From Buxus sempervirens (taxonomy: Eukaryota > Streptophyta > Magnoliopsida > Buxales > Buxaceae), in contig OX387183.1 in NCBI GenBank assembly GCA_947561395.2, forward strand, positions 5,947,883 to 6,011,882: 64,000 nucleotides of DNA. Reading direction: 5' to 3'. A program made the translations under genes and the position numbers. The notes beneath the pieces are model-generated. The model saw only the letters and a program-made list of their open reading frames with translations. It was not told the DNA's origin and searched no databases. Numbering within the stretch: the stretch's first letter is position 1; every line of letters begins with the position of its first letter. Of this stretch, positions 27,693 through 63,203 are shown in pieces.

Positions 27693-28239
27693 CCTCTTCT
27701 CTGCTTCTTTGCAAAGACTCTTTCTGGTGACGAGCAAGCTCTTCCAGCTCTCAAACGTTGGTCTGACATAGAAGGCTGCGTCTGAAAGTCTAAAGAGCGC
27801 GGCAACTTGTGTGGTTTTTTATTAATGAGGTGAAGTGTGGGACCGACTCTGATTCAGCAGAAATCACAAAATGCCAATGGTTCGGGTTTCAAACCGAAAT
27901 CGAACTGAATCCGAAACCCTTTTTTTAAGGCGTCGTTTGTCATTGATCTTGAAAACTTGTCCCCCTAGGACTTGAAATCTGCTGGAGCCTTTGGCTGGAA
28001 GATCTGTTGGTCCAACGGTGATGTATGTGTCCACATAGATGTATAAAGCCTATGTATACACACCTTCTTGGACGGGTTTAAACGGGTGTTTGATTTTGTT
28101 TGCAGAATAAGTTTTCCCCAAATGATTTTGTTGCGGAATTGTAGACACCCCAAATTGCACTAAAAATGAGAAAATAATTGAAAATATTAATTGGGATTTG
28201 AAACAGGTCAAAAAAGTGTAAAATCTGGCCAAACTGGTC

Positions 28240-28345
28240 ATGACCGTATTTTGTTTACGGACTGGTCATACCTGCAGTTGATATACGGTCATGGCGTGCC
28301 CGTATTAATAATACGGGCAGGGCGCGACCGTAATATATATACGGG
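28240..28345 (+). promoter_or_regulatory. U3 inverted repeats built on CCGTAT / ATACGG
   Basis: This patch, about 210-310 bp upstream of the LTR TATA box, contains at least six CCGTA or TACGG motifs. One is the near-perfect palindrome gcccgtattaataatacggg. Equivalent patches lie in the 3' LTR (38279-38385), in the diverged solo LTR (46430-46565) and, unexpectedly, in the internal leader (31165-31300). They may be transcription-factor sites or cruciform/hairpin structures. Confidence 0.5.
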
Positions 28346-28552
28346 CACGGGGTCTTTGTGCGAATTTTACCTTTTTTATTTTTGAGCCTTATCTGCACCC
28401 AAATATCTCTCTTGGATAAGCGAATTATATTATTTATCTGTTCGAATTATCTCATTTATCCTTGTGGATAAAGGATTGGCATGATCTTGTGTTTAACTCA
28501 AACTGAAACTCTATCCTGCCAAACCTTGGACCAACCTTACCCCTGGGTGTGT

Positions 28553-28562
28553 CTATAAATAG
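28553..28562 (+). promoter_or_regulatory. TATA box of the 5' LTR
   Basis: ctataaatag, followed about 25-30 bases later by the probable start of transcription. The same box is at 38590-38599 in the 3' LTR. Confidence 0.7.
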
Positions 28563-29956
28563 AGGCTCTTTCCTCTAGCTAAGGGCCACGAAATTTTGAG
28601 TCCAAGGAATTCTAAGAAGCTCCAAGAGAAGAATCCCTGCTGCTCTGCCTGATCAATCCAGGTAAGTCCCCTATCCCTTTTTATTTTCTGTCTTTAAATT
28701 CTAGAAGTAATAGGATCATCTCTATTGCTGTAGAATAAGGGCATATCTGTTTTTGTATTCCTAAACTTGTCTCCAAGTACCTCAAGGGTCTCTCTAGCCG
28801 TAAAACGTGAAGAGAGAACTAGGGGAAAGGGGAACAGGTGGATCCCTAGAATAGAACCCCATATCTGTTTTTTCTCTTTTTTCTAGAATAAGGCATGTGA
28901 TTGTGTTTGTGTAACCAAACCTATCTCCAAGTACCTCAAGAGTCTCTCTAACCGTAAAACGTGAAGAGAGAACTAGGGGAAAAGAGAACAGGTGGATCCG
29001 TAGGGTAGACCCCCATGTGCTCTAATCTGTGAGATGTGGCTGTTTTAAATATCCTGATCATGTTTTAATGCTTTTTATGATATATTTGAATGAATAACAT
29101 GAATCTATGATGTTTATAGCATGAGATCCCCTATTTTTGCCAAAATTTGGATTTTTGCCACTTTTGCACCTACAGCACTGTTTTCGTGATTTTTGTGGTT
29201 TTAGGCTAGGATCTTGGATTTATCATGATCAATATGGTAGATCTGAATCCAGAAGCCTGAAAGTAAATTCTAGGGTTTCATGAGATGGTTTTTAAATTGT
29301 TTTTCATTATTGAGAAAGGACCCTACGGTCTAAATTCTCCCCTTTTGGTGTTTTTCATCAATGTGGGTATTTTTGGTTTTTATTTTTGGATTTAATGTGA
29401 AATTTGGGCTTTATCTATGTCCTGGACTATTCAAGTTCAATTTTGAAATATTTTGTAAAAATCATATTTTTCTAGATTTCTAGAATTTGACTTGGAGCCA
29501 GATTTTTGGATTTTTCACTTTAAATTGATTTTATTTGATTTTATCTCAATTTTATTTTGATCATGAAACCCTAGGAATGGTATGATCATATTTGATAGTT
29601 CTGGATCAATCAGACTATTCATATGAAAAAACCATACAATTTTTGTCTTTTTTGTGATTTTTCCTGATTTTATAGCAAGCCTTTTTTATTTGTAAAACAT
29701 GAACAATACCTGGCAACCACCTTGTGTGGATGAATAGGGGTGCCTAACACCTTCCCCTGTCCATAACTTAATCCCCTTACCCATCTCTGGTTGTTTTTTT
29801 AGGAGGGATATTTTGCCCTAAAATTGCCTTTTGTGCTTATTTGATATTTTGGTGTCCATTCACACCTAAATTGAATGGTGGCGACTCTTTGTTTTAATTA
29901 ATCCCGTGTGATGATTGAGGAAATCATTAGATTGATTTTTTCCCATGTCTCACAAC

Positions 29957-29974
29957 TGGCGACTCTGCTGGGGA
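29957..29974 (+). other. Primer-binding site (probably tRNA-Arg)
   Basis: tggcgactctgctgggga starts two bases after the LTR. It ends in the TGG expected opposite a tRNA CCA end. The wording agrees with the tRNA-Arg primer reported for Ogre/Tat elements; the tRNA itself was not checked. Confidence 0.7.
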
Positions 29975-31164
29975 TTTGAGGATTTAAGCCTTTTGGTGTT
30001 TGTTCATGTTTTTGATTTTTTAGTTGCTTGCTATTTTGTGTTCTTAAGCATGTTGAAAATGTTTTAAATCTGAATTATTGCTTAAGAATTCATGGGGGTA
30101 GAAACATGCTTAATTTTGATTCATAGGATTGTTTCTACAAACATGTGTAGGGGAGGTCCGTTTTGATGAGTTATGCTTATTTCTTGCTATATTTTTATAG
30201 CATGTTTTAATTTTCAGCATGATCTCCATGATGATTTTGGGTGTATAACATGATCATATGTTTGCATGATAGATGATTTTTTTTTATGAGCATGTTTTGG
30301 GTGCTATAGGATTGCTTTATTTACTTGTTTATTTTAAATATGCTTTCCTATTATGCCTTAGTTTGTTTATGTATGGCTGCGAAAAGAGTGGCAAGGGTTT
30401 GGGACGTTGTGAATGTAACCTATTTTTACAATGCACTGTGCACCTTTTATTTTTACACAGCCTACCCTTAACCTATAGGAAGTTGAACCCGAATGTGTGT
30501 AGCTTGGCGCAACGAGGTCGATACTTCGGAAAGCGAAAGTGAAAACATTCACCTTAGAACTTTGAGCTAATGATGTGATGATAATGTGGATCTGGGATTC
30601 TGGTCATCACTAGGCTTGAGTGCTAAGTTGCCATTAAGCCAAAACCCAAAACCCCTACGCTTGAAGGTGGAGTTACACGTTTTTGGCTAAAGTATACAAT
30701 TACGTGGGGATATGGGTTTGTATGATTGTGGGAAGGCCGTGTGCATGGCTTACAAACCAGGGCATAATGCGGATGCCATATTGAAGGTAAACAAGGTAAC
30801 AAGGTAATCCTATGGTTTTGCATTATTTTCATGTCATAGGGGTGTCATGGTGCCCATTGGTTCGGGATAAAATTGGTCCCAAAATATGCATATTTTCTAA
30901 AATTGGTACAGCCCATAGGAAGAGTTTCTAACTCTGTTTAGAATCAATCCTACCCAATGTTCATACAAGAGGCAACACAAGGGTACCAAATTCTAGAATA
31001 TGGAGTCAATTCAGAGGGTACATGTGCCCTCCTAAGCATGTGTTTTAGCAAGAAGGCCAAGGTCCACTTTGGGACAGTTTAGAAGCTCTGCAATGGGTGA
31101 ACCGTACGTTTGGATGAACAATGAAAGTGACCAAACCATGTAAAAACTGGAAAAACATAACAGG

Positions 31165-31300
31165 GTTCCGTAAAACCGCATTTAGTACACGGGCTGGGCT
31201 TACCCGTATTAGTTATACGGGCTAGGCTCGCCCGTGTTTTCCATACGGTCACGGCTTGCTCGTAATTTGAATACGGGCAAAGCTGGACCGTACTGTGTAT
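31165..31300 (+). repeat. Leader copy of the ATACGGGC hairpin patch
   Basis: acccgtattagttatacggg plus further ccgtaa / atacgggc / gaccgta motifs echo the U3 patch but lie 1.2 kb inside the element, upstream of the hairpin arrays. Confidence 0.6.
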
Positions 31301-31463
31301 ACGGTTTTCTCGGAATATTCAACTTTAATCAGTTTTTCCCACTAAAATCTTTCTTTAACCTTTAAATAATGATAAAGGGAAACAAGTTTGAATAAAATGC
31401 TTCAAAAAAAAAAAAAGAGAAAAACAAAAGAAAACAAAAAAAAATGTGAGAGAAAGGTTCCTT

Positions 31464-32155
31464 GGGCTTCTGAAAGCCTTTGAATTTCAGACTTTTTCAA
31501 AACTCTTGGGCTTCTGAAAGCCTTTGAATTTCAGATTTTTCAAAAATCCTCGGGCCTCTGAAAGCCTTTGAATTTCAGACTTTCTTTCTCCAAAAAACTC
31601 TTGGGCCTCTGAAAGCCTTTGAATTTCAGATTTTTCAAAAAATCCTCGGGCCTCTGAAAGCCTTTGAATTTCAGACTTTTTCTCAAAAAATTCCTGGGCC
31701 TCTGAAAGCCTTTGAATTTCAGATTTTTTCAAAAATCCTGGGCCTCTGAAAGCCTTTAAATTTCAGATCTTTTGGGCTTCTGAAAGCCTTTGAATTTCAG
31801 ACCTTTTTCTTTTGGGCCTCTGAAAGCCTTTGAATTTCAGAGCTTTTGGGCCTCTGAAAGCCTTTGAATTTCAGACTTTTTTCAAAATATCCCTGGGCCT
31901 CTGAAAGCCTTTGAATTTCAGATTTTTCAAAAAATCCTCGGGCCTCTGAAAGCCTCTGAATTTCAGACCTTTTCCAAAAATATCCCTGGGCCTCTGAAAG
32001 CCCTTGAATTTCAGACCTTTTCCTTTGGGCTTCTGAAAGCCTTTGAATTTCAGACTTTTTCTCAAAAATCCCTGGGCTTCTGAAAGCCTTTGAATTTCAG
32101 ACTTTTTCCAAAAATCTCTTTGGGCCCCTGAAAGCCTTTGAATTTCATATCCTTT
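31464..32155 (+). repeat. Hairpin array A1: 16 units with TCTGAAA / TTTCAGA stems
   Basis: Sixteen units of about 34-50 bp. Each has the lead GGGC(C/T), arm TCTGAAA, loop GCCTTTGAA, arm TTTCAGA, then a T-rich spacer. Fifteen units keep both arms intact; the last (about 32128) has changes in both. Loop variants include gcctttaaa, gcctctgaa and gcccttgaa. Confidence 0.9.
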
Positions 32156-32170
32156 TTCCTTTTCGGGACC

Positions 32171-32197
32171 TGTTGGAAGCCCTAGAATATTCCAACA
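32171..32197 (+). repeat. Hairpin C, first copy (TGTTGGAA / TTCCAACA)
   Basis: A perfect 8-bp stem around loop gccctagaata separates arrays A1 and B. It is identical to the copy at 32953-32979, including flanking ggacc and aa. Confidence 0.9.
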
Positions 32198-32206
32198 AAC
32201 CTTTTT

Positions 32207-32663
32207 TGGGCCGTCTATAAGCCTCTGATTTATAGACACACACCTTTTTGGGCCGTCTATAAGCCTCTGAATTATAGACACACACCTTTTTGGGCCGTCT
32301 AAAAGCCTCTGAATTTTAGACAATCATTTCTTTGGGCCGTCTAAAAGCCTCTGAATTTTAGACAAATCATTTTTTTGGGGCCGTCTAAAAGCCTCGGAAT
32401 TTTAGACAAATCATTTTTTTGGGCCGTCTATAAGCCTCTGAATTATAGACACATATTTCTTTGGGCCGTCTAAAAGCCTCTGAATTTTAGACAAATCATT
32501 TTTTTGGGCCGTCTAAAAGCCTCTGAATTTTAGACAATAATTTCTTTGGGCCGTCTAAAAGCCTCTGAATTTTAGACAAATTATTTCTTTGGGCCGTCTA
32601 AAAGCCTCTGAATTTTAGACAAACCTTTTCTTTGGGCCGTCTATAAGCCTCTGAATTATAGAC
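32207..32663 (+). repeat. Hairpin array B: 11 units with GTCTAWAA / TTWTAGAC stems
   Basis: Eleven units of about 41-45 bp. Each has lead GGGCC, an 8-bp arm, loop GCCTCTGAA and the matching arm. Seven units read GTCTAAAA with TTTTAGAC and four read GTCTATAA with TTATAGAC (near 32213, 32253, 32427, 32639). No unit mixes the two forms, so pairing is kept throughout. Confidence 0.92.
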
Positions 32664-32675
32664 ACACATATCCTT

Positions 32676-32930
32676 TGGGCCTCTGAAAGCCTTTGAATTT
32701 CAGAACTTTTGGGCCTCTGAAAGCCTTTGAATTTCAGACTTTTTTTCAAAAACTCCTTGGGCCTCTGAAAGCCTTTGAATTTCAGACTTTTATCAAAAAT
32801 CCTCAGGCCTCTGAAAGCCTTTGAATTTCAGACCTTTTCCAAAAAAATATCCCTGGCCTCTGAAAGCCTTTGAATTTCAGACCTTTTTCAAAAACCCCCC
32901 GGGCCTCTGAAAGCCTTTGAATTTCAGAAC
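32676..32930 (+). repeat. Hairpin array A2: six further TCTGAAA / TTTCAGA units
   Basis: Six units of the same type as array A1, all with intact 7-bp stems and loop GCCTTTGAA, on the far side of array B. Confidence 0.9.
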
Positions 32931-32952
32931 CTTTCTCTCTTTTTGCAGGACC

Positions 32953-32979
32953 TGTTGGAAGCCCTAGAATATTCCAACA
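32953..32979 (+). repeat. Hairpin C, second copy
   Basis: Same 27-bp stem-loop as 32171-32197, closing the array region just before an A-run and the gag start. Confidence 0.9.
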
Positions 32980-33175
32980 ATTCAATTCAAAAAAAAAAAA
33001 AAAAAAAGAGAAGCAAATAAAGAAACAAAATCCAAACTCGTGTTCACCCAGCTTGCACATAGGCATTCCTAGGCATGTGAATGAGATTAATTGGGCACTG
33101 ATTTTTTTATTTTTTTTGCCAGGTACTAATACACTTGCAATCATAGCTCCTGTAACCAGATCAAGAGCTCGCGCC

Positions 33176-34873
33176 ATGAATCCCATTGAAGACGAAGCTG
33201 ATGCTCCTCATCCAGATGTTGTCCTACTCCAGGAGCAAGTGGCAGGACTAGCCCAAATGCTAGAGAACATACTATCGGTGTAGGCCCAACAAGTACAAGC
33301 CCAGAACCAATCATCCACTTCCAACCAAGCACCTTCACCTCCAATCAATATCCCACCTCCGGTTCAACCCATTCCTGAACCCATTTCTAAACCTACCCCT
33401 GAACCTATACTGATCAGGGAGGAGATGGTTGAGTCTGAGAAAGAGAATGAAAAAGAAAAGATGAGGGATGAAATAGAAAGAAAATTCATGCATAGGCTGG
33501 AGATGATCCAGGATGAAATGAGGGAAGTGAAAGGGATATGTAACTTTGGGGGCACCAATTTTGAAGATCTGTGCCTATACCCCGATGTATGTCTACCGGC
33601 CAAGTTTAAATGCCCAGATTTTGATAAATATGATGGCACTGGCTGCCCAATGAGCCATTTGAAGTTATACTGCGGGGCTTTATGCCAGTTTGGCCCGGAT
33701 GACGGCATACTAATCCAGCTCTTCCAACGGAGTTTGACTGGAGCTGCTTTGAGGTGGTTTGCCACTTTGGATCATGGGAAAATAAGAAGGTGGAAGGATT
33801 TAGCAGATTCCTTTTTGGCACAATACAAGTTCAACTCTGAGATTATACCAGATAGGTATGACATGATGAGGATGACAAAGAGAAATGATGAGACCATAAG
33901 GCAATATGCTAAAAGGTGGAGGGAGTTGGCTGCACAAGTCAAGCCACCCGTGGGAGAACCAGAAATGATTTCAACTTTCATCATGACATTGGGGCAACCG
34001 TTTTACAGTCACTTGGTGGGTCAAACTACCACCAACTTTGCTGCCCTAGTGCAAGTGGCAGACAGAATTGAAGATGGGATCAAGTCTGGGAAAATAGCTG
34101 ATTGCTCTGCAGTGTTGAACCAGGAAGCTTCCACCACTTTCTCTACACAGAAAAAGGAGAATGGTAATGGAAAAAGAAAGAATGAAGAAAGGATAGAAGC
34201 AGAAGTAAATATGGTGCAACCTCCCAGGGAACCCTTTCAAATCAATGTCCATCCACCTCCTATCAAGCCAACCCATCAAGTTCCTTTGTTGCCTATCCAA
34301 ATTAATGTCCCTTTTGCACAGCATGTGAAGGAGGAAACAGAAGTAAGGAAGAGAAGGGAATTTTCTAAACTACCTATGAGACCATCTGAACTTTTGCCTA
34401 CCTTACTTCAGAAGGGTTATGTGACTTTGAGGTTGCCAAATCCTCATGCAAGTAAAGGGAAGAATTATGATTCATCTGCAATCTGTGATTATCATATGAG
34501 CACTCCAGGGCATACCACAGATCGTTGCTTGGCCCTAAAGCATGCAATCCAGGATTTGCTGGATAATAACTCCTTATCATTCAATTCAGTTACACCCATC
34601 CCACCTACCGATAACAATGGGGCAGGCAACTCAAATGCAATAGGGGCAATTTTCTCTGGAGAAAGAAGATCTGATCCTTCTCAGCTTATCGCTCCTTTTG
34701 GTCCAACAGTCAGGGTTTATCTTGAAAGAAATGCTCCTGGTTATGAGCAGGAAGGCTTGCCTCACTTAGCAAGAGAAAGAAAGTATCTGAAAAAGGGAGA
34801 AAAGTCAATTTTTGCCTTTGAGAACAGGGGCAGTTTTCAAACTCCCACGTTCTCTGAAAAGAAACCTGCATAA
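33176..34873 (+). pseudogene. gag of the Tat-like retrotransposon, interrupted by one stop
   Basis: The frame starts at ATG 33176 (MNPIEDEADAP). It meets a TAG at 33281-33283 and continues in the same frame to 34873, with a long uninterrupted stretch from the Met at 33425 (482 residues). Visible features: a charged coiled-coil N-terminus, the retrotransposon Gag fold (FDKYDGTGCPMSHLKLYCGA, ALRWFATL, WKDLADSFLAQYKFN, YAKRWRELAAQVKPP), and a C-terminal zinc-knuckle-like CDYHMSTPGHTTDRC at about residues 354-368 of the 482-residue frame. Gag packages element RNA in cytoplasmic particles. No protease frame follows. Either the internal Met at 33425 is used or this copy is inactive; the stop could be new, since the LTRs show that the element is young. 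Confidence 0.85.
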
Positions 34874-37800
34874 GAAGAATGCACATTTCCTGAGGATCCT
34901 AAGGAGCCTTGTTCTCAGGAAGTGATTTTAATAAAGGCTCTTCAAAAAAAGAAAAAAAAGATTTTTCCCTTTAACATTTTTCTAGAAAATAAAAAAGTTT
35001 TTAGCAAGGTCCTTTTTACTTATGAATCATATCTCTTATTGAATTTCATTGAGTTGAATATGACTTTGACATTGGGCTCAATTTTGAGACTGAAATCGAA
35101 GAAAAAGACATTTTATGTGAAAATTCAAATCTTTTTAAGTGTCATGAGAAGAATATTTTGCAAAATTATGAAGTGACCAATTTTATGGCCTTTGGAACCA
35201 AAGATGATCCACAGTCTTCAACAGAAAAAATAGAATAAGATTTGAAGTTTTTGCATTAGAATACAGAAAGGATCACATCACTTGCTGATTCGTTCAAAAG
35301 GAAGTTGATAATATTGTTTGAAGAAATTTTGGGGCTTTGCACTTGAAAATATGAGAGAAGATCTGACCTTTTCGTGGGAAATAGAATTGGACATTATTTG
35401 ATGGAAAGAATCCAAATTCATAAGATTGATCAAAAGGTGAAGAACTTGTTCATAATAGAGATCCTATTTGAAGAGGCTTTCATGTTGACAGAAGGTGATT
35501 AAGAAGGAAAAAAAGAGAAGAAAAAATCCTGAGCCAGTCATGTAGTACAACTCTACCAAGTCGAAAATTCAATTTTTTCTTAAAATGATAAGAGGCCTTT
35601 CTTTCTTATATCTCTAAATTTTTTGAAATCCCTAGTTAAACCCTTTGAGCTTGATACATTTTTCTAAGTAACCTAAACTGAGAATTGTAACCCCACACTG
35701 GGGCAAATTTATTAAGGCATAAAAAAAAGGAATGAAGGGACAATTATTGAAGTTCAAGAGGGATTTTGAATATGTTTTCAGAAAATGGGGCAAAGAAAAA
35801 AAGAAATGAAGAAAAAGAAAGAAAAAAAAGAAGAAGAAAAAAAAGATAATCAAATGCTAGTTGGAGAATGTCTTCAAAATTGTGAAGAAAAGAATGGAAA
35901 AAAGAAGTTCAATACTGGAGAATAAGTTTCAAATGAAGAAATCAAATTGAGGGAAGAACTTCATTACTGGGGGCAATTTTGTATTCATTCCAAGGGAAGA
36001 AATGCCTTAAAAATTACAATTTCAGTTAACCCATTTAATCATATGGTATTTGAGCCTTTTATTCCTTTTCTTTCTAAACAAACACCAAGCCTTCATTTCG
36101 TCCCATTCATAAGTCCTCTTTGATTAAGAAATTTTGAATTAAGGTAGCTTGGACCACATAGTTGCTGGTGATGAAGGATAAAAAAAAAAAAAGAAGAAGA
36201 AAAAAAAAGAAAAAAGAAAAAAATGGAGAAAATGTAGTGAAAACCCGGAAGGGCGCTACATAGCAAATAATTGGCTATCTACAAGAAAGAAATCGTCAGA
36301 GAGGAAAGTCCAGAATTGGCATAGATCCAGGTGAAGTCCTCATGTTGGTGGTTATTTTGAGATACAGTCACTCTTCAAGTGATTGAGGAAAATTCTCTTT
36401 TCAAGACTAAAGCAACATAATCAGAACTATGATATGAATCATCTGTGAACAAGTTAATGGCCATCAAAATTGCCATTAGGAAATTATTGTTGAAGTTGAA
36501 GTCATAAATTCCCATATCATGGATACAATGGAGAAACAATTGTTCTTCAATTGGATGAAGGAAAATGTCTTTCCAAGACTGGGGCAAAATAGTCAGATTG
36601 AAAGAGTCGTCATATCTGGAGCATCAATTGACAAGCCGATGGTTATGGGGATGACTCTAAAGGTTCCAAAGGTTGATTTTGGTCTTTCTTCATTTTCTGA
36701 AATAATCTTCTCATTATTCAACTTGATTTTAATTCTTTTGGACTATATGCTAATAAGTGATTGGATCATTTTTTCAAAAAAATATAAAAACACAAAAAAG
36801 CAAAAACTATATTTTTGGCCTATGATGAGCATCTATATCTTTTCATAAAACATTGGTTTTGCAAGCATTAGAGGATTCTGAGGCCGCTAGTATAAAACAT
36901 ATTTTCTTATGTTTGCATTTGCATTCTTCTATTAGGATTTATTTTTGGCAAAGGTTAAAAAAAATAAGAGAGAGAGAGAAAAAGAAAAAAAGAAAAAGAA
37001 AAAAGAAAAAAAAAAGAAAAAAAAGAGGATCATCTCTGCTGAGGGGCAAATACTTCTTCAAACAATCAAAACCGGAGCATGCTCAATGTCTTTCCTTCTG
37101 GGTTTTCATTGGAATGAATTCCAACATCTGGAAAAAGCAATCAAGCTTTAGTCTTCGAATTTGAAAGAAAAAAAAAAGGCTTCGAAGCAATGGCATGTTT
37201 TCTTCATTAAACAAGGGTTCCCAATTCTTCAATCATGAAGAAGGATTTTACTGGGGTAGCAAGAAGGCATGAAAGACAAATCATGGGTTGTAAAGGCATG
37301 AGGTTAGATCAACAGATCATGATCCATCAATCAAGATGAGGGCATTAACTTGGGCAATTAAAAAGCATGAAGACAGGTTATGGGCAGTAAGGGCACATAT
37401 ATCGTTATTGAGAGAGCAAGAAGATAAAGAAGCAAAAGCAAGTTCCAAAATATTCAAGCACAGGTTCGGGCATCAAATGGCACCCCAGGTATATTAAATA
37501 AGAAAGTCAATCAGGAAAATTCAAAAAGTGAAAAACATCAAAATCAATTGAGTTTGCAGTGGTCAATTTTAAATCCACATTCTTTTCAAAATTTGCTTGT
37601 CTCAGATTTCTTTTCATAGCCATGAGAGCTCCAAGAAATCTGAGATAAGGAAGATACGCCACCCCATCAGACTTCAAGCAGGGGTTTCATTGGCTATCTT
37701 CGAATCCATGTTTTAATCATTTCTTTGTTTGACCAAAGCAAGTTCAATTAATGAGATGTCTTTCAAATGTGTAATTTTGAGTTGTGTCTGTTCTTTGCTA

Positions 37801-38161
37801 TTCATTATGCTACAACTGCAGGCCACCCAGAAAAATTGTCTTTTTCATCATTTTCTCCACACTTTTCAGGAGATCAATGTCTATATTAGTTGTAAGTTGC
37901 AAGGATTGCCACTTTACCCACTTTTGTTTTAAAAATTTTGTCTCAAATCTCACTTCATAGCCACGAGAGCTCAGTGAGAGGAGAGAGGAGGATTTGGCCC
38001 TTAAGCTGAGGGACTTCTTAGCAAATCTTCCACAATCAATTCTTTTTTTCAAAAATCATCCATTTAATCCTCGCAAAGTGCAATTGGTTAGACAAAAGTC
38101 TCAGAAAGTGCAATTGGTGGGTCTTTTTGCTCTCTGCTTGTAATTGGTTCCAATTACCAGC
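34874..38161 (+). other. Non-coding 3' part of the retrotransposon, pol missing
   Basis: No protease, RT, RNase H or integrase motif is seen. The stretch is rich in A/G runs (35800-35850, 36180-36235, 36955-37030). It contains two pairs of diverged internal duplicates: about 36376-36480 with 36541-36660, and about 37560-37640 with 37900-37990 (shared catagcca.gagagct). It ends in short caattggt repeats before the polypurine tract. Confidence 0.7.
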
Positions 38162-38175
38162 AAAGAGGGGGCAGC
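38162..38175 (+). other. Polypurine tract
   Basis: aaagagggggcagc lies immediately before the 3' LTR, the expected plus-strand primer position. Confidence 0.8.
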
Positions 38176-39990
38176 TGTAGACACCCCAAATTGCACTAAA
38201 AATGAGAAAATAATTGAAAATATTAATTGGGATTTGAAACAGGTCAAAAAAGTGTAAAATCTGGCCAAACTGGTCATGACCGTATTTTGTTTACGGACTG
38301 GTCATACCTGCAGTTGATATACGGTCATGGCGTGCCCGTATTAATAATACGGGCAGGGCGCGACCGTAATATATATACGGGCACGGGGGTCTTTGTGCGA
38401 ATTTTACCTTTTTTATTTTTGAGCCTTATCTGCACCCAAATATCTCTCTTGGATAAGCGAATTATATTATTTATCTGTTCGAATTATCTCATTTATCCTT
38501 GTGGATAAAGGATTGGCATGATCTTGTGTTTAACTCAAACTGAAACTCTATCCTGCCAAACCTTGGACCAACCTTACCCCTGGGTGTGTCTATAAATAGA
38601 GGCTCTTTCCTCTAGCTAAGGGCCACGAAATTTTGAGTCCAAGGAATTCTAAGAAGCTCCAAGAGAAGAATCCCTGCTGCTCTGCCTGCTCAATCCAGGT
38701 AAGTCCCCTATCCCTTTTTATTTTCTGTCTTTAAATTCTAGAAGTAATATGATCATCTCTATTGCTGTAGAATAAGGGCATATCTGTTTTTGTATTCCTA
38801 AACTTGTCTCCAAGTACCTCAAGGGTCTCTCTAGCCGTAAAACGTGAAGAGAGAACTAGGGGAAAGGGGAACAGGTGGATCCCTAGAATAGAACCCCATA
38901 TCTGTTTTTTCTCTTTTTTCTAGAATAAGGCATGTGATTGTGTTTGTGTAACCAAACCTATCTCCAAGTACCTCAAGAGTCTCTCTAACCGTAAAACGTG
39001 AAGAGAGAACTAGGGGAAAAGAGAACAGGTGGATCCGTAGGGTAGACCCCCATGTGCTCTAATCTGTGAGATGTGGCTGTTTTAAATATCCTGATCATGT
39101 TTTAATGCTTTTATGATATATTTGAATGAATAACATGAATCTATGATGTTTATAGCATGAGATCCCCTATTTTTGCCAAAATTTGGATTTTTGCCACTTT
39201 TGCACCTACAGCACTGTTTTCGTGATTTTTGTGGTTTTAGGCTAGGATCTTGGATTTATCATGATCAATATGGTAGATCTGAATCCAGAAGCCTGAAAGT
39301 AAATTCTAGGGTTTCATGAGATGGTTTTTAAATTGTTTTTCATTATTGAGAAAAGACCCTACGGTCTAAATTCTCCCCTTTTGGTGTTTTTCATCAATGT
39401 GGGTATTTTTGGTTTTTATTTTTGGATTTAATGTGAAATTTGGGCTTTATCTATGTCCTGGACTATTCAAGTTCAATTTTGAAATATTTTGTAAAAATCA
39501 TATTTTTCTAGATTTCTAGAATTTGACTTGGAGCCAGATTTTTGGATTTTTCACTTTAAATTGATTTTATTTGATTTTATCTCAATTTTATTTTGATCAT
39601 GAAACCCTAGGAATGGTATGATCATATTTGATAGTTCTGGATCAATCAGACTATTCATATGAAAAAACCATACAATTTTTGTCTTTTTTGTGATTTTTCC
39701 TGATTTTATAGCAAGCCTTTTTTATTTGTAAAACATGAACAATACCTGGCAACCACCTTGTGTGGATGAATAGGGGTGCCTAACACCTTCCCCTGTTCAT
39801 AACTTAATCCCCTTACCCATCTCTGGTTGTTTTTTTAGGAGGGATATTTTGCCCTAAAATTGCCTTTTGTGCTTATTTGATATTTTGGTGTCCATTCACA
39901 CCTAAATTGAATGGTGGCGACTCTTTGTTTTAATTAATCCCGTGTGATGATTGAGGAAATCATTAGATTGATTTTTTCCCATGTCTCACA
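38176..39990 (+). repeat. 3' LTR
   Basis: 1815 bp, nearly identical to the 5' LTR. By eye the differences are four substitutions and two compensating one-base indels (one in a G-run, one in a T-run). Confidence 0.95.
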
Positions 39991-45820: not shown

Positions 45821-48167
45821 TGTAGACACCCCAAAATTGCACGATTTTTTATAAATCTTGAAGGAGAGAAATATTTTATTTGAATTTTCAATTCTTAGCA
45901 TTGGGTTTGAGATCCTTAACCGATTTGAATCCAAAACCATCATTAACCCATTTGAATCCAAAACCACAAAGGAAAAGGCCGAATTCAATCTTTTGTGTAA
46001 AGTCAAACTTTTTCCGGTTGAATTTTGTTGACTTTTGACCCCAGAAAATGAAATCTTTTTTAAAGCAAGATTTCAAGATAATTTTTCCCTGTAATCAAGT
46101 TTTTAGCAATATTATTGCATAAATGACTTTTTTCAAATTTTAAATCTTGACGAATACCTTGGTATTAACATGTTGAATCTTTTTACCGGATCTGAAAAAC
46201 CGGAATTTAGCTTGGAACTGGAAATTTGACTTTTTATTCACTGGGAATTTGAGTCTGGAACTATTTTTAATGGATTCAAATGGGGGGTGTTTGCTTATTT
46301 ACATGTAATATCTTAAGTAAATGGAGATTAAAAAATACGAGAACATTTACTTAAATGATATTACATGTAAATAAGTATTGTCTGTGCAGAAACAGGTCAA
46401 AAACTGTTAAAAATTGGTAAAACCTATCATGCCCACATTTTATCTGTAGACTAGTCGTACCCGTAATTTATCTACGGGCTGCTAATGCCTGCAATTGATA
46501 TACGGGCATGCTTTGCCCGTATTAACAATGCGGGCAGGGCACGCCCGCATTATATATACGGGCACAGGGTTTTTATGCGAATTTATCCTTTCTCGATTTT
46601 GGAGCCTTATCTGCACCTAAATCTCTCTTTGAGAGATTCGAATTCTCTTATTTATCCATTTGAATTCTCTTATTTATCCTATTTGGCAATGGATTGGCAT
46701 TATCTCTGTTTTTAATTCAATCTGAAACTCTATCTTGGCAACCCTTGGACCAACCATGCCCCTAGGTTTGCCTATAAATAGAGGGCAGATCCTCAAGCAA
46801 ATGGCTATGAATTTGAAGTCTGAAGAGCTCTAAGTGAAGAAAGGAATCCCTGTTGCTCTGCTTGCTCAATCCAGGTAAGTCCTTTTTCTCCTTTATTTTC
46901 TGTCTTCAATTCTAGAAATAATCTGATCTTCTCTATTGCTGTAGAATAAGGCCTGGTTTATAATTGTATTCCCAAACCTACCTCCAAGTACCTCAAGACC
47001 CCTCTCTAACCGTAAAAGGTAAAGAGAGAGCTAGGGGAAAGGGGGAACAGGTGGATCCCTAGAATAGCACCCCATAATCTGTTGTTCTTATTTTCTGTAG
47101 AATAAGGCCTTTGATTGTGTTTGTATCCCCAAACCTATCTCTAAGTACCTCAAGACTCCTTTCTAGCCGTAAAACGTGAAGAGAGAGCTAGGGGAAAAGA
47201 GAACAGGTGGATCCGTAGGGTAGACCCCCATGTGCTATAATCTCTGAGATGTGGTTGTTTTTAATATCCTGCTAATGTTTTAATGATTTTACTTTAAATC
47301 TGGAGGGATCCTATGAATCCATGATGTTTATAGCATGAGATCCCCACTTTTTTCTATAATTTGGATTTTTCACACCTTTGCATACAGCACTGTTTTTCTT
47401 AATTTTAGTGATATTTGGCTAGGATTTTGGATTTACTATGATCTATATGGTAGATTTGAAACCAAAAGCCTAAAAATAACGTGTAGGGTTTCATGATGTG
47501 ATTTTGAAATTGTTTTAAATCTTGGAGAAAGGATCCTATGGTCTAAACTCTCCCTTTTGGTGTTTTTTCATCAACATAGGTTGAGTGGGGGTTCTATTTC
47601 TCCACTATTGAGAGATCCGGATAAGATCTGTAATCCAAGTAATTTTATTCTTCAAGATTTTAGTCGAGATTTCCATCTGATTTTTCAATCTTTTAATGGT
47701 TTAGCCTAAAACTAGTTTTTCATGTTTCTCTTTAGATTGGTTTTATCTGATCTTTTATCTCAAATTTATTTTAATCATGAATCCTTTAGAATGGTATGAT
47801 CATATTTGAGAGTTCTGAATTAATCAGGCTATTCGTATGAAAAAACCATACACTTTTGTCTTTTTTTTTTTATTTTTTATGATTTTAGTAGCAAGCCTTC
47901 TTTATTTTTAACATGAACAATGCCTGGCAACCACCTTGTGTAGATGAATAGGGGTGCCTAACACCTTTCCCTGTTCATAATTTAATCCCCTTACCCATAT
48001 CTGGTTGTTTTTTTAATAGGGTTATTTTTACCCTAAATTTGCCTTTTTATGCTTATTTGAGATTTTGGTGTCCATTCACACCTAAACTGAATGGTGGCGA
48101 CTCTTTGTTTTTAACCAATCCCGTGTGATGATTGGGAAGTCATTAAATTGATTTTCCATGTCTCACA
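45821..48167 (+). mobile_element. Solo LTR, diverged member of the 28140-39990 family
   Basis: It starts TGTAGACACCCC and ends TGTCTCACA, flanked by gatag at 45816-45820 and 48168-48172. It aligns with the 1815-bp LTRs along most of its length, including the hairpin-rich U3 patch, TATA (ctataaatag at about 46772), duplicated R/U5 motifs and 3' end. It carries about 500 bp of extra U3 near its 5' end, including a short palindromic element. Many substitutions show that it is much older than the complete copy. Confidence 0.88.
46294..46375. repeat. Short palindromic element in the solo LTR U3
   Basis: cttatttacatgtaata at 46294-46310 is the exact reverse complement of 46359-46375. The inner ttaagtaaatg / catttacttaa arms also pair. 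About 80-100 bp, MITE-like, absent from the younger LTRs. Confidence 0.7.
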
Positions 48168-57261: not shown

Positions 57262-57772
57262 TCATTAACAACCCAAGTCAGCATTAGGGTACAACACCGC
57301 TAACAAACGTGGGTACAACCCAAAATAGCATGGGGTACAACCCTCTTAGCAACGGGTACAACCCAATGCTACCTTGGGTACAACACCGCTAACAGATGTG
57401 GGTACAACCCAAAATAGCATGGGGTACAACCCTCTTAGCAACGGATACAACCCAAGTCAGCATAGGGTACAACACAGCTAACAAAAGTGGGTACAACCCA
57501 AAATAGCATGGGGTACAATCCTCTTAGCAACAGGTACAACCTAAGTCAGCATAAGGTACAACACCGCTAACAGACGTGGATACAACTCAAGGAAACATGG
57601 GGTACAACCCTCTTAGCAACGGGTACAACTCAAATCAGCATAGGGTACAACATCGCTAACAAATGTGGGTACAACCCAAAATAGCATGGGGTACAACCCT
57701 CTTAGCAAGGGGTACAACCCAAGTCAGCATAGGGTACAACACCGCTAATAGACGTGGGTACAACCCAAGGTA
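57262..57772 (+). repeat. 88-bp higher-order tandem repeat, forward arm
   Basis: About five and a half copies of an 88-89-bp unit made of four 22-bp subunits, each starting GGGTACAAC: A (ccaaaatagcat), B (cctcttagcaac), C (ccaagtcagcata) and D (accgctaacaaacgt). Subunit D starts near 57287, 57376, 57464, 57555, 57642 and 57731. Confidence 0.9.
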
Positions 57773-58455
57773 GCATTGGGTTGTACCCGTTGCTAAGAGG
57801 GTTGTACCACATGCTATTTTGGGTTATACCCACGTTTGTTAGCGGTGTTGTACCCTATGCTGACTTGGGTTGTACCCCTTGCTAAGAAAGTTGTACCCCA
57901 TGCTACCTTGAGTTGTATCCACGTCTGTTAGCGGTGTTGTACCTTATGCTGACTTGGGGTGTACCTGTTGCTAAGAGGATTGTACCCCATTCTATTTTGG
58001 GTTGTACCCACTTTTGTTAGCGGTGTTGTACCCTATGCTAACTTGGGTTGTATCCGTTGCTAAGAGGGTTGTACCCCATGCTATTTTGGGTTGTACCCAC
58101 ATCTGTTAGCGGTGTTGTACCCTATGCTGACTTGAGTTGTACCCGTTGCTAAGAGGGTTGTACCCCATGCTACCTTGGGTTGTACCCACGTCTGTTAGCG
58201 ATGTTGTACCCTATGCTGACTTGGGTTGTATCCGTTGTTAAGAGGGGTGTACCCCATGCTATTTTGGGATGTACCCACATCTGTTAGCGGTGTTGTACCC
58301 TATGCTGACTTGGGTTGTACCCGTTGCTAAGAGGGTTGTACCCCATGCTATTTTAGGTTGTACCCATATTTGTTAGCGGTGTTGTACCCTAATTCTGACT
58401 TGGGTTGTACCTGTTCTTAAAGGGGTTGTACCCTATGCTACCTTGGGTTGTACCA
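57773..58455 (-). repeat. 88-bp higher-order tandem repeat, inverted arm
   Basis: About seven copies of the same unit in reverse orientation (GTTGTACCC phase). They abut the forward arm at a palindromic turning point near 57770 with no unique spacer. The whole is an inverted repeat of about 1.2 kb. Confidence 0.9.
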
Positions 58456-62375: not shown

Positions 62376-63203
62376 ACCCCATATCAGCTGGAGCGGGACG
62401 CTGGAAGATCGGCTGGAGCTTTGGCCGATTTCCGCCACGCGTCCCACTCCAGCTCATGACTAAAACGGAGAGTCTCCGTTAATTGAGACTCTCCGTTATG
62501 CTCATCTGCCCCCAAAAACGAAATCCCCAAAATTAATGGACTTGCCCGATTCTCATTGGCTAATTCAAAGCTACCATTATCAAATAACAAATATGAGTAC
62601 AACCCAAGGTAGCTTGGGGTACAACCCTCTTAGCAATGGGTACAACCCAAATCAGCATAGGGTACAACACCGCTAACAAACGTAGGTATAACCCAAGGTA
62701 GCTTGGGGTACAACCCCCTTAATAACGAGTACAACCCAAATCAGCATTAGGGTACAACACCACTAACAAATATGGGTACAACCCAAGGTAGCATGGGATA
62801 CAACCTTCTTAGCAATGGGTACAACCCAAGTCAGCATAGGGTACAACACCGCTAACAAACGTGGGTACAACCCCCTTAACAACGGGTACAACCCAAGTCA
62901 ACATTGGGGTACAACACCGCTAACAAACGTGGGTACAACCCAAAGTAACATGGGGTACAACCCTCTTAGCAACAAATACAACCCAAGGTAGCATGGGGTA
63001 CAAAACCACTAACGAACATGGTACAACCCATGTCAGCATGGGATACAACCCGCTTAGCAAAGGGTACAACCCCATGCTAACTTGGGTTGTACCCATGTTC
63101 GTCATGGTACAACCCGATGCTAACTTGGAGTGGGACGCGTGGCAGAAATCGGCAAAAGCTCTAGCCGATCTTCCAGCGTCCCCGCTCCAGCTGATATGGG
63201 GTA
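62376..63203. mobile_element. 828-bp Mutator-like element of the same family
   Basis: Perfect 9-bp duplication caatccatg at 62367-62375 and 63204-63212. Ends accccatatcagctggagcg and its complement match the TIR of the 9.4-kb element; the right TIR is truncated to about 80 bp. The interior (62592-63118) is mostly the GGGTACAACCC higher-order repeat. No coding capacity. Confidence 0.88.
62592..63118. repeat. GGGTACAACCC higher-order repeat inside the short element
   Basis: About five degenerate 88-bp units forward, then a short inverted part from about 63065. Subunits A-D are the same as at 57262-58455. Confidence 0.85.

Follow-up and report, generated by a model that had tools for sequence, protein, structure and literature searches.

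The 64,000-nucleotide stretch of Buxus sempervirens DNA analysed here (contig OX387183.1, positions 5,947,883-6,011,882; hereafter the window) carries, on the plus strand at 31464-32979, a tandem array of 35 small hairpin units in the leader of an LTR retrotransposon at 28140-39990. Our tentative reading, to which we give slightly less than an even chance, is that tandem amplification of a cis-acting RNA element in a gag-only LTR retrotransposon family produced the array, and that it serves as a many-site handle on the unspliced RNA, most likely for the family's own Gag, in packaging or dimerisation. Each unit, consisting of a lead (GGRCC), a 7-8 bp stem and a loop opening with GCC, would form a local hairpin on the plus strand. 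Splicing would yield a short gag mRNA lacking both array and primer site, the unspliced RNA would be the genome for packaging and reverse transcription, and the array would mark that RNA at many sites, most likely by being bound by the element's own Gag. We infer that the RNA folds in the cell, is spliced and binds Gag, and we likewise infer its function; the many-site Gag signal in particular is suggested by the position of the array (between primer site and gag, 3′ of the splice donor), its regular presence, its repetition and its pairing.

Anatomy of the element and its array

Element anatomy, the presence of the array in the copies examined, the covariation of the arms between stem classes and the splice-site motifs were computed from the DNA. 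The element is bounded by a 5′ LTR at 28140-29954, which starts TGTAGACACC, and a 3′ LTR at 38176-39990; the two, 1815 bp long, are 99.67% identical, with four mismatches and two gap positions between them, and the target-site duplication GGAAT stands before 28140 and after 39990. As far as its sequence tells, the element is young. A TATA box (TATAAATA) lies at 28554-28561, a candidate primer-binding site (TGGCGACTCTGCTGGGGA), recognised by position and TGG start, at 29957-29974, and a polypurine-tract-like stretch (AAAGAGGGGGCAGC) at 38162-38175, directly before the 3′ LTR. The gag frame (PF03732, E 4.6e-12) occupies 33176-34873, with an in-frame TAG at 33281-33283 in this copy, and its translation contains the motif CDYHMSTPGHTTDRC, which we take to resemble a variant zinc knuckle. 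Among 33 stop-to-stop frames listed, nine besides gag were scanned; none held a protease, RT, RNase H or integrase domain, and they gave merely sub-threshold matches to unrelated families, so that the element appears gag-only as far as these nine frames show. The retrotransposon leader that the earlier note had assumed as the setting of the array is borne out; it measures 3.2 kb from the LTR end to the gag ATG (33176).

Several other repeats accompany the element. Inverted repeats with CCCGTA/TACGGG-type arms occur at 28283-28320, in the upstream part of the LTR (with perfect 10-bp arms at 28297-28320), and at 31203-31306, in the leader 5′ of the array. Between gag and the 3′ LTR, 35792-37026 is filled with A/G-rich low-complexity repeats (AAAGAAAA). 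Outside the element, 46461-47574 includes a related LTR piece, 82% identical to the element's LTR, and 89-bp tandem repeats (GGGTACAACCCAA...) stand at 57268-58454 and 62585-63129; in the former, two such arrays face each other and form a large inverted repeat.

A pattern scan found 34 perfect hairpins with a GCC-opening loop in the leader. They fall into class A (TCTGAAA/TTTCAGA, 21 perfect units), class B1 (GTCTAAAA/TTTTAGAC, 7 units, all perfect), class B2 (GTCTATAA/TTATAGAC, 4 units, all perfect) and class C (TGTTGGAA/TTCCAACA, 2 units, both perfect); the 35th unit is a broken class A hairpin with the arms CCTGAAA/TTTCATA. Their order is 16 A, one C, 11 B1/B2, six A and a final C, with the inner C hairpin at 32171-32197 and the 3′-terminal one at 32953-32979. 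The scan thus reproduces the extent and the unit counts given in the earlier note, including 11 perfectly paired B units and 21 intact hairpins among 22 of class A. Of the two motifs that the note described as shared, the GCC loop start is present in 35 of 35 units, while the lead GG(G/A)CC is found in most, the exceptions being some A units with GGGCT and one unit with CTGGCC. Hairpins with 7-bp arms and a loop of 9 or 11 number 37 within the array (1.5 kb) versus 28 across the other 61.8 kb of the window, and 500 dinucleotide shuffles of the array gave 0.74 on average and five at most. Since the units are tandem copies, the 37 hairpins are not 37 independent events; the array's hairpins are beyond chance, and their excess over shuffles says nothing more.

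The predicted leader intron and the wider family

We predict a leader intron of 4461 nt at 28662-33122, on the plus strand. Its donor (CAG/GTAAGT, cut at 28661/28662) lies in the LTR downstream of the TATA box, and its acceptor (CCAG/GTACT) just 5′ of gag, where a CACTGAT branch-like motif, a pyrimidine tract and CCAG make up the predicted 3′ splice site (33090-33122). The related LTR piece within 46461-47574 retains both TATA box and donor and is 79% identical around them. Splice-site reading covered 55 of 63 copies, eight being excluded for want of an anchor, and also left out L084, which has a different sequence 3′ of its array. Of the 55 readable copies, 49 have an acceptor of the form [CT]AG/GTAC and 52 a branch-like CTRAY motif 5′ of it; the intervening pyrimidine tract differs between copies in length and sequence. 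Acceptor and CTRAY were both present in the three second-subfamily pieces read. With the start of exon 1 set at 28585 from the TATA box, 78 ATGs fall inside the predicted intron and none in the predicted exons before the gag ATG. As the predicted intron encloses the primer-binding site and the array along with these ATGs, only unspliced RNA would carry both, and the layout implies that spliced RNA could make Gag, with reverse transcription open to unspliced RNA only.

The same layout raises the possibility that the structured array sets the share of unspliced RNA or slows ribosomes on it. That the array lies in a predicted intron with so many ATGs and has pyrimidine-rich spacers between its units is in keeping with such control over splicing or translation. 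Against this, splicing is itself a prediction, and unit numbers that vary so widely are ill suited to fine control; we regard this explanation as quite unlikely.

Two further observations concern the sequence around the acceptor. At 33123-33178, 5′ of the gag ATG, the window and the second-subfamily pieces L083 and L085 share, to judge by eye, the frame LAIIAPVTRSRARAM, with differences mostly at third positions; the start of translation may formerly have lain farther 5′. Immediately before GCTCC, 44 of the 46 copies scored have the codon ATA and 2 have ATT.

To place the array in its family, the genome (676.5 Mb) was searched with the array DNA, where the best 40 of 2211 candidate places were scored, and with the Gag protein, where the best 82 of 11658 were scored and the closest relatives taken from these. 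No stop interrupted the matched part in 72 of the 82 gag matches listed. When the 30 best gag loci were cut out, all 30 had an array upstream (at least 21 loop motifs in each), and the 23 non-redundant loci among them held 14-28 units within 1500 bases of gag. The 37 arrays with both flanks contain 22-45 units each (median 30). In what we call subfamily I, the terminal unit is a C hairpin in 60 of 60 arrays, and the 7-bp stem is perfect in 91 of 92 C units. These 60 arrays remained after the removal of L001-L008, whose places recur among loci fetched later, and of seven of L046-L075 that duplicate other arrays or fall within them; near-identical segmental copies, L012/L013 and L032/L072 among them, were retained. 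Arrays L046-L075 are truncated 1500 bases 5′ of gag; the array of the window is represented by L046, which covers 27 of the 35 units. At one place (G000:C15:10540859-10579485), five gag copies stand head to tail, 9257-9268 bases apart, as if neighbours shared LTRs.

Searches for other stem letters gave 18 and 13 hits, and seven of the 18 places were fetched. Three of these (L076-L078) led to a second subfamily, which comprises L076-L078 and L083-L085, six pieces of 601-2201 bases, and has the stems D (TTTGAAA/TTTCAAA), C2 (CTTGGAA/TTCCAAG) and C3 (TTTGGAA/TTCCAAA). The four AAAACAAA places (L079-L082) were rejected as arrays, having no matching 3′ arm. An extra hairpin recurs in the leaders of L077 and L083-L085, in units of about 76 bp; its arms are either TTTGGTTGG/CCAATCAAA, which include a G.U pair, or fully paired in the form TTTGATTGG. 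Throughout, units were found with seven templates, written after the sequences had been seen and allowing five mismatches, a procedure that would miss remoter stems.

Genome-wide, 27,786 units keep the lead GGGCC, the loop GCCTNTGAA and pair 3 of the stem. So large a copy number might suit a source or decoy of small RNAs, or a repeated peptide. Known Dicer substrates are, however, far longer than stems of 7-8 bp, and the 20 commonest unit spacings, which run from 33 to 57 nt, have no period of three and hence preserve no constant reading frame. A coding repeat was rejected on these spacings, and the small-RNA and peptide explanations together seem to us highly improbable.

Covariation of the stem arms and its possible origins

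Among the 1851 units of 66 arrays or array pieces, 1611 have a perfect 7-bp stem, and all of these use just seven sequences: TCTGAAA (659), TCTAAAA (592), TCTATAA (229), GTTGGAA (94), TTTGAAA (27), TTTGGAA (5) and CTTGGAA (5). Every class is one base pair away from another, with both arms altered. TTTGGAA is linked in this way to GTTGGAA, CTTGGAA or TTTGAAA, TTTGAAA to TCTGAAA, TCTGAAA to TCTAAAA, and TCTAAAA to TCTATAA, giving a minimal tree of six double changes. The earlier note's observation that the stems differ and stay complementary thereby extends from four stems to seven, connected by single base-pair steps. Reshuffling the 3′ arms among the seven stems gave full pairing in 2 of 20000 trials and as many double changes as observed in 76 of 20000; 14195 of 20000 reached the number of pair types, which therefore does not exceed the shuffles. 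For the 159 distinct cores, 198 of 500 shuffles reached the number of pair types and 197 of 500 that of double changes, and none of 500 reached the paired share, which was 91.0% versus 81.1% in the shuffles. Pairs were counted by script and not from the MAFFT alignment, which misplaced the longer C loop. The seven-stem set is our best evidence that pairing rather than sequence has been kept, or copied, through about six double changes, and with only seven classes these represent few independent events.

A second argument of the earlier note, that the absence of mixed arms proves selection on each unit, fails. In the 60 arrays, the pair that distinguishes B1 from B2 matches in 818 of 825 units, four being mixed (three T.T, one A.A) and three carrying point changes. 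In L085, of the second subfamily, a mixed unit stands four times. As a control we used the unpaired spacer of each unit (26 of the 825 B units fit no spacer type and 28 are of intermediate type). Units whose 3′ arm has parted from its own spacer are just as rare, with one clear and two to three doubtful units over 7 nt, as against three clear arm-arm recombinants over 14 nt. Because splits between arm and spacer are equally scarce, linkage by descent explains the scarcity of mixed arms, and we rejected the case for selection built on their absence, there being no depletion relative to the spacer control. What remains of the claim of selection on pairing is thus that arms change together across the seven stems; for the single unit, absent mixed arms prove nothing.

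One-sided changes are frequent. The earlier note had named mismatched arms in other copies as a finding that would speak against its reading, and 142 of 804 A units are indeed mismatched or joined by wobble only, which counts against it. The outermost pair is A.C in 100 of 825 B units, and nine units, above all in L084, combine a C2 5′ arm with a C3 3′ arm (TTCCAAA), leaving the outermost pair mismatched. Of the 156 stem changes counted in class A, 74 turn C to T or G to A at CTG/CAG sites in one arm or the other, so that about half of them would reflect decay at methylated CHG sites after insertion.

These patterns bear on the main and serious competitor to a functional reading. Template switching by reverse transcriptase or during DNA replication could copy one arm to the other, as in quasi-palindrome correction, and tandem duplication could then amplify the hairpins, with no function needed. 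A proposal that template switching creates and maintains matched hairpins is put forward in the relevant parts of PMC8794818. The wide variation in unit number, from 22 to 45 in 37 arrays, the finding that mixed arms are no rarer than arm/spacer recombinants and the abundance of one-sided stem changes all accord with neutral hairpins of this kind. Copying alone, in contrast, leaves three things unexplained, namely the low variation of the lead GGC, the same position of the array in 30 of 30 gag loci, and the way in which the balance of A>G and T>C is reversed between stem interiors and loops. Weighing both sides, we consider a purely neutral origin somewhat unlikely. The array should also help to tell whether matched hairpins arise through selection on RNA pairing or through template-switch copying.

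The last of these patterns can be read in terms of strand. In plus-strand RNA, A>G in a stem converts an A-U pair to G.U, and T>C leaves A.C. Counted as array-level events, A>G versus T>C stood at 33 v 18 in stem interiors and 2 v 30 in loops (Fisher p 5.6e-8, the events not being fully independent). By class, the stem counts were 21 v 4 in A, 8 v 8 in B1, 3 v 3 in B2 and 1 v 3 in D; at the outermost pair the direction was reversed (A>G 4, T>C 24), and C>T and G>A in stems were about equal (49 v 46). The asymmetry points to plus-strand RNA, but it comes from class A. At pair 3, T.G outnumbers C.A as well: the genome-wide counts are 27,786 T-A, 185 T.G, 93 C.A (about 10 of these places being units with a shortened stem) and 3 C-G; the three compensated units compare with 0.6 expected from independence, and genome-wide compensation at this pair was rejected for lack of a clear excess of the compensated state.

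Folding of the units and comparison with known systems

Single stems are weak: those of A, B1, B2 and C reach -5.8 to -8.1 kcal/mol. When the whole array was folded in a nested model, 7 of 34 units formed their own hairpin in the minimum-energy structure, and the stability z score against 40 shuffles was -2.8 for the plus and -2.5 for the minus strand; the modelled fold is thus only mildly stabler than shuffles, and units compete among themselves. The lead GGGC is, in addition, complementary to the loop start GCC(T), and because the lead lies outside the stem, a lead-loop helix would cross the stem and make an H-type pseudoknot possible. Its geometry (L1 of 1-3 nt, L2 of 0-1, L3 of 5-7) fits all seven stem classes. 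With ViennaRNA stacking energies and a penalty of 9.6 kcal/mol, the Dirks-Pierce value, the pseudoknot is favoured over the plain hairpin by a roughly estimated 3.6-4.0 kcal/mol in all classes. Covariation in the lead-loop helix amounts to a single class-level shift: the C units, whose lead is mostly GGGA and whose loop begins GCCC, would form GGG:CCC in place of GGGC:GCCT.

Transitions per 1000 units are low at lead positions G2 (6.9), G3 (11.6) and C4 (19.7) and at loop positions G1 (5.2), C2 (3.5) and C3 (5.2). They amount to 19.1 at loop G7, to 32.4 at the first lead G, where A also pairs, and reach their highest value, 77.6, at the nucleotide between lead and stem. Loop T6, A8 and A9 are as invariant as GCC, so low variation does not make GCC special. 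The low variation of lead and loop fits a pseudoknot, and a plain conserved motif would look alike; each unit may possibly be an H-type pseudoknot that joins the lead GGGC to the loop start GCC(T). On this model it is tempting to speculate that the leader carries 22-45 tandem pseudoknots in a removable intron. Acting at many sites as a signal for packaging or dimerisation, they would let a gag-only element tag its unspliced transcripts for the Gag that it encodes and vie with an autonomous partner for the partner's enzymes, a scenario that we nonetheless judge unlikely.

The constancy of the lead could also have its cause in DNA, if the units were repeated protein-binding sites. TTGGGCC/T presumably resembles the plant site II / TCP motif TGGGCY, GGGC varies little, and in 793 of 797 A units a C or T follows it. 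Such sites leave the seven complementary stems unexplained, and most C units have GGGACC or GGGACA instead, which makes a DNA-level element very improbable in our view.

A signal on unspliced RNA, our preferred reading, was compared with known systems at several levels. An Rfam scan assigned the unit to no family at gathering score, the one match being at chance level (15.3 bits against a threshold of 68), and a known RNA family was therefore rejected. A search of titles and abstracts, whose coverage leaves out most subscription journals, returned no hairpin array in the leader of a plant retrotransposon. To our knowledge, little is known of how RNA is marked for packaging in plant LTR retrotransposons, gag-only ones above all, and an array between primer site and gag, in a predicted intron, offers a defined RNA to probe and to assay for Gag binding.

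The element itself resembles the TR-GAGs (terminal-repeat retrotransposons with GAG domain) in its two LTRs, candidate primer-binding site, polypurine tract and gag domain (PF03732), and in the lack of protease, RT, RNase H and integrase domains from the nine other frames scanned; we know of no leader hairpin array in TR-GAGs. Like Tat/Ogre elements, it is an LTR retrotransposon with internal non-coding tandem repeats whose number varies. The passages of PMC7004042 on these elements place their hypervariable tandem repeats downstream of gag-pol, in the 3′UTR. Here, in contrast, the long array lies in the leader, 5′ of gag, each unit being a hairpin with covarying arms, and downstream there are merely short A/G-rich repeats.

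For the proposed separation of a spliced gag mRNA from the packaged RNA, BARE provides a precedent, since the parts of PMC3735527 on its RNAs describe the two as separate pools; the same source states that fairly little was known, as of 2013, about the packaged RNA of other elements. BARE, as described there, splices after gag and has two promoters, whereas in the Buxus element a leader intron before gag is predicted.

Among RNA signals, the runs of small H-type pseudoknots at the 3′ ends of plant RNA viruses are similar in kind. They differ in that the present units lie in a retrotransposon leader, are more numerous and form pseudoknots in a model. With retroviral packaging signals and the multi-site packaging signals of RNA viruses, the array has in common its place between primer site and gag, 3′ of a predicted splice donor, and its many hairpins with a shared motif; it stands apart in its 22-45 tandem copies and in its stems of several sequences.
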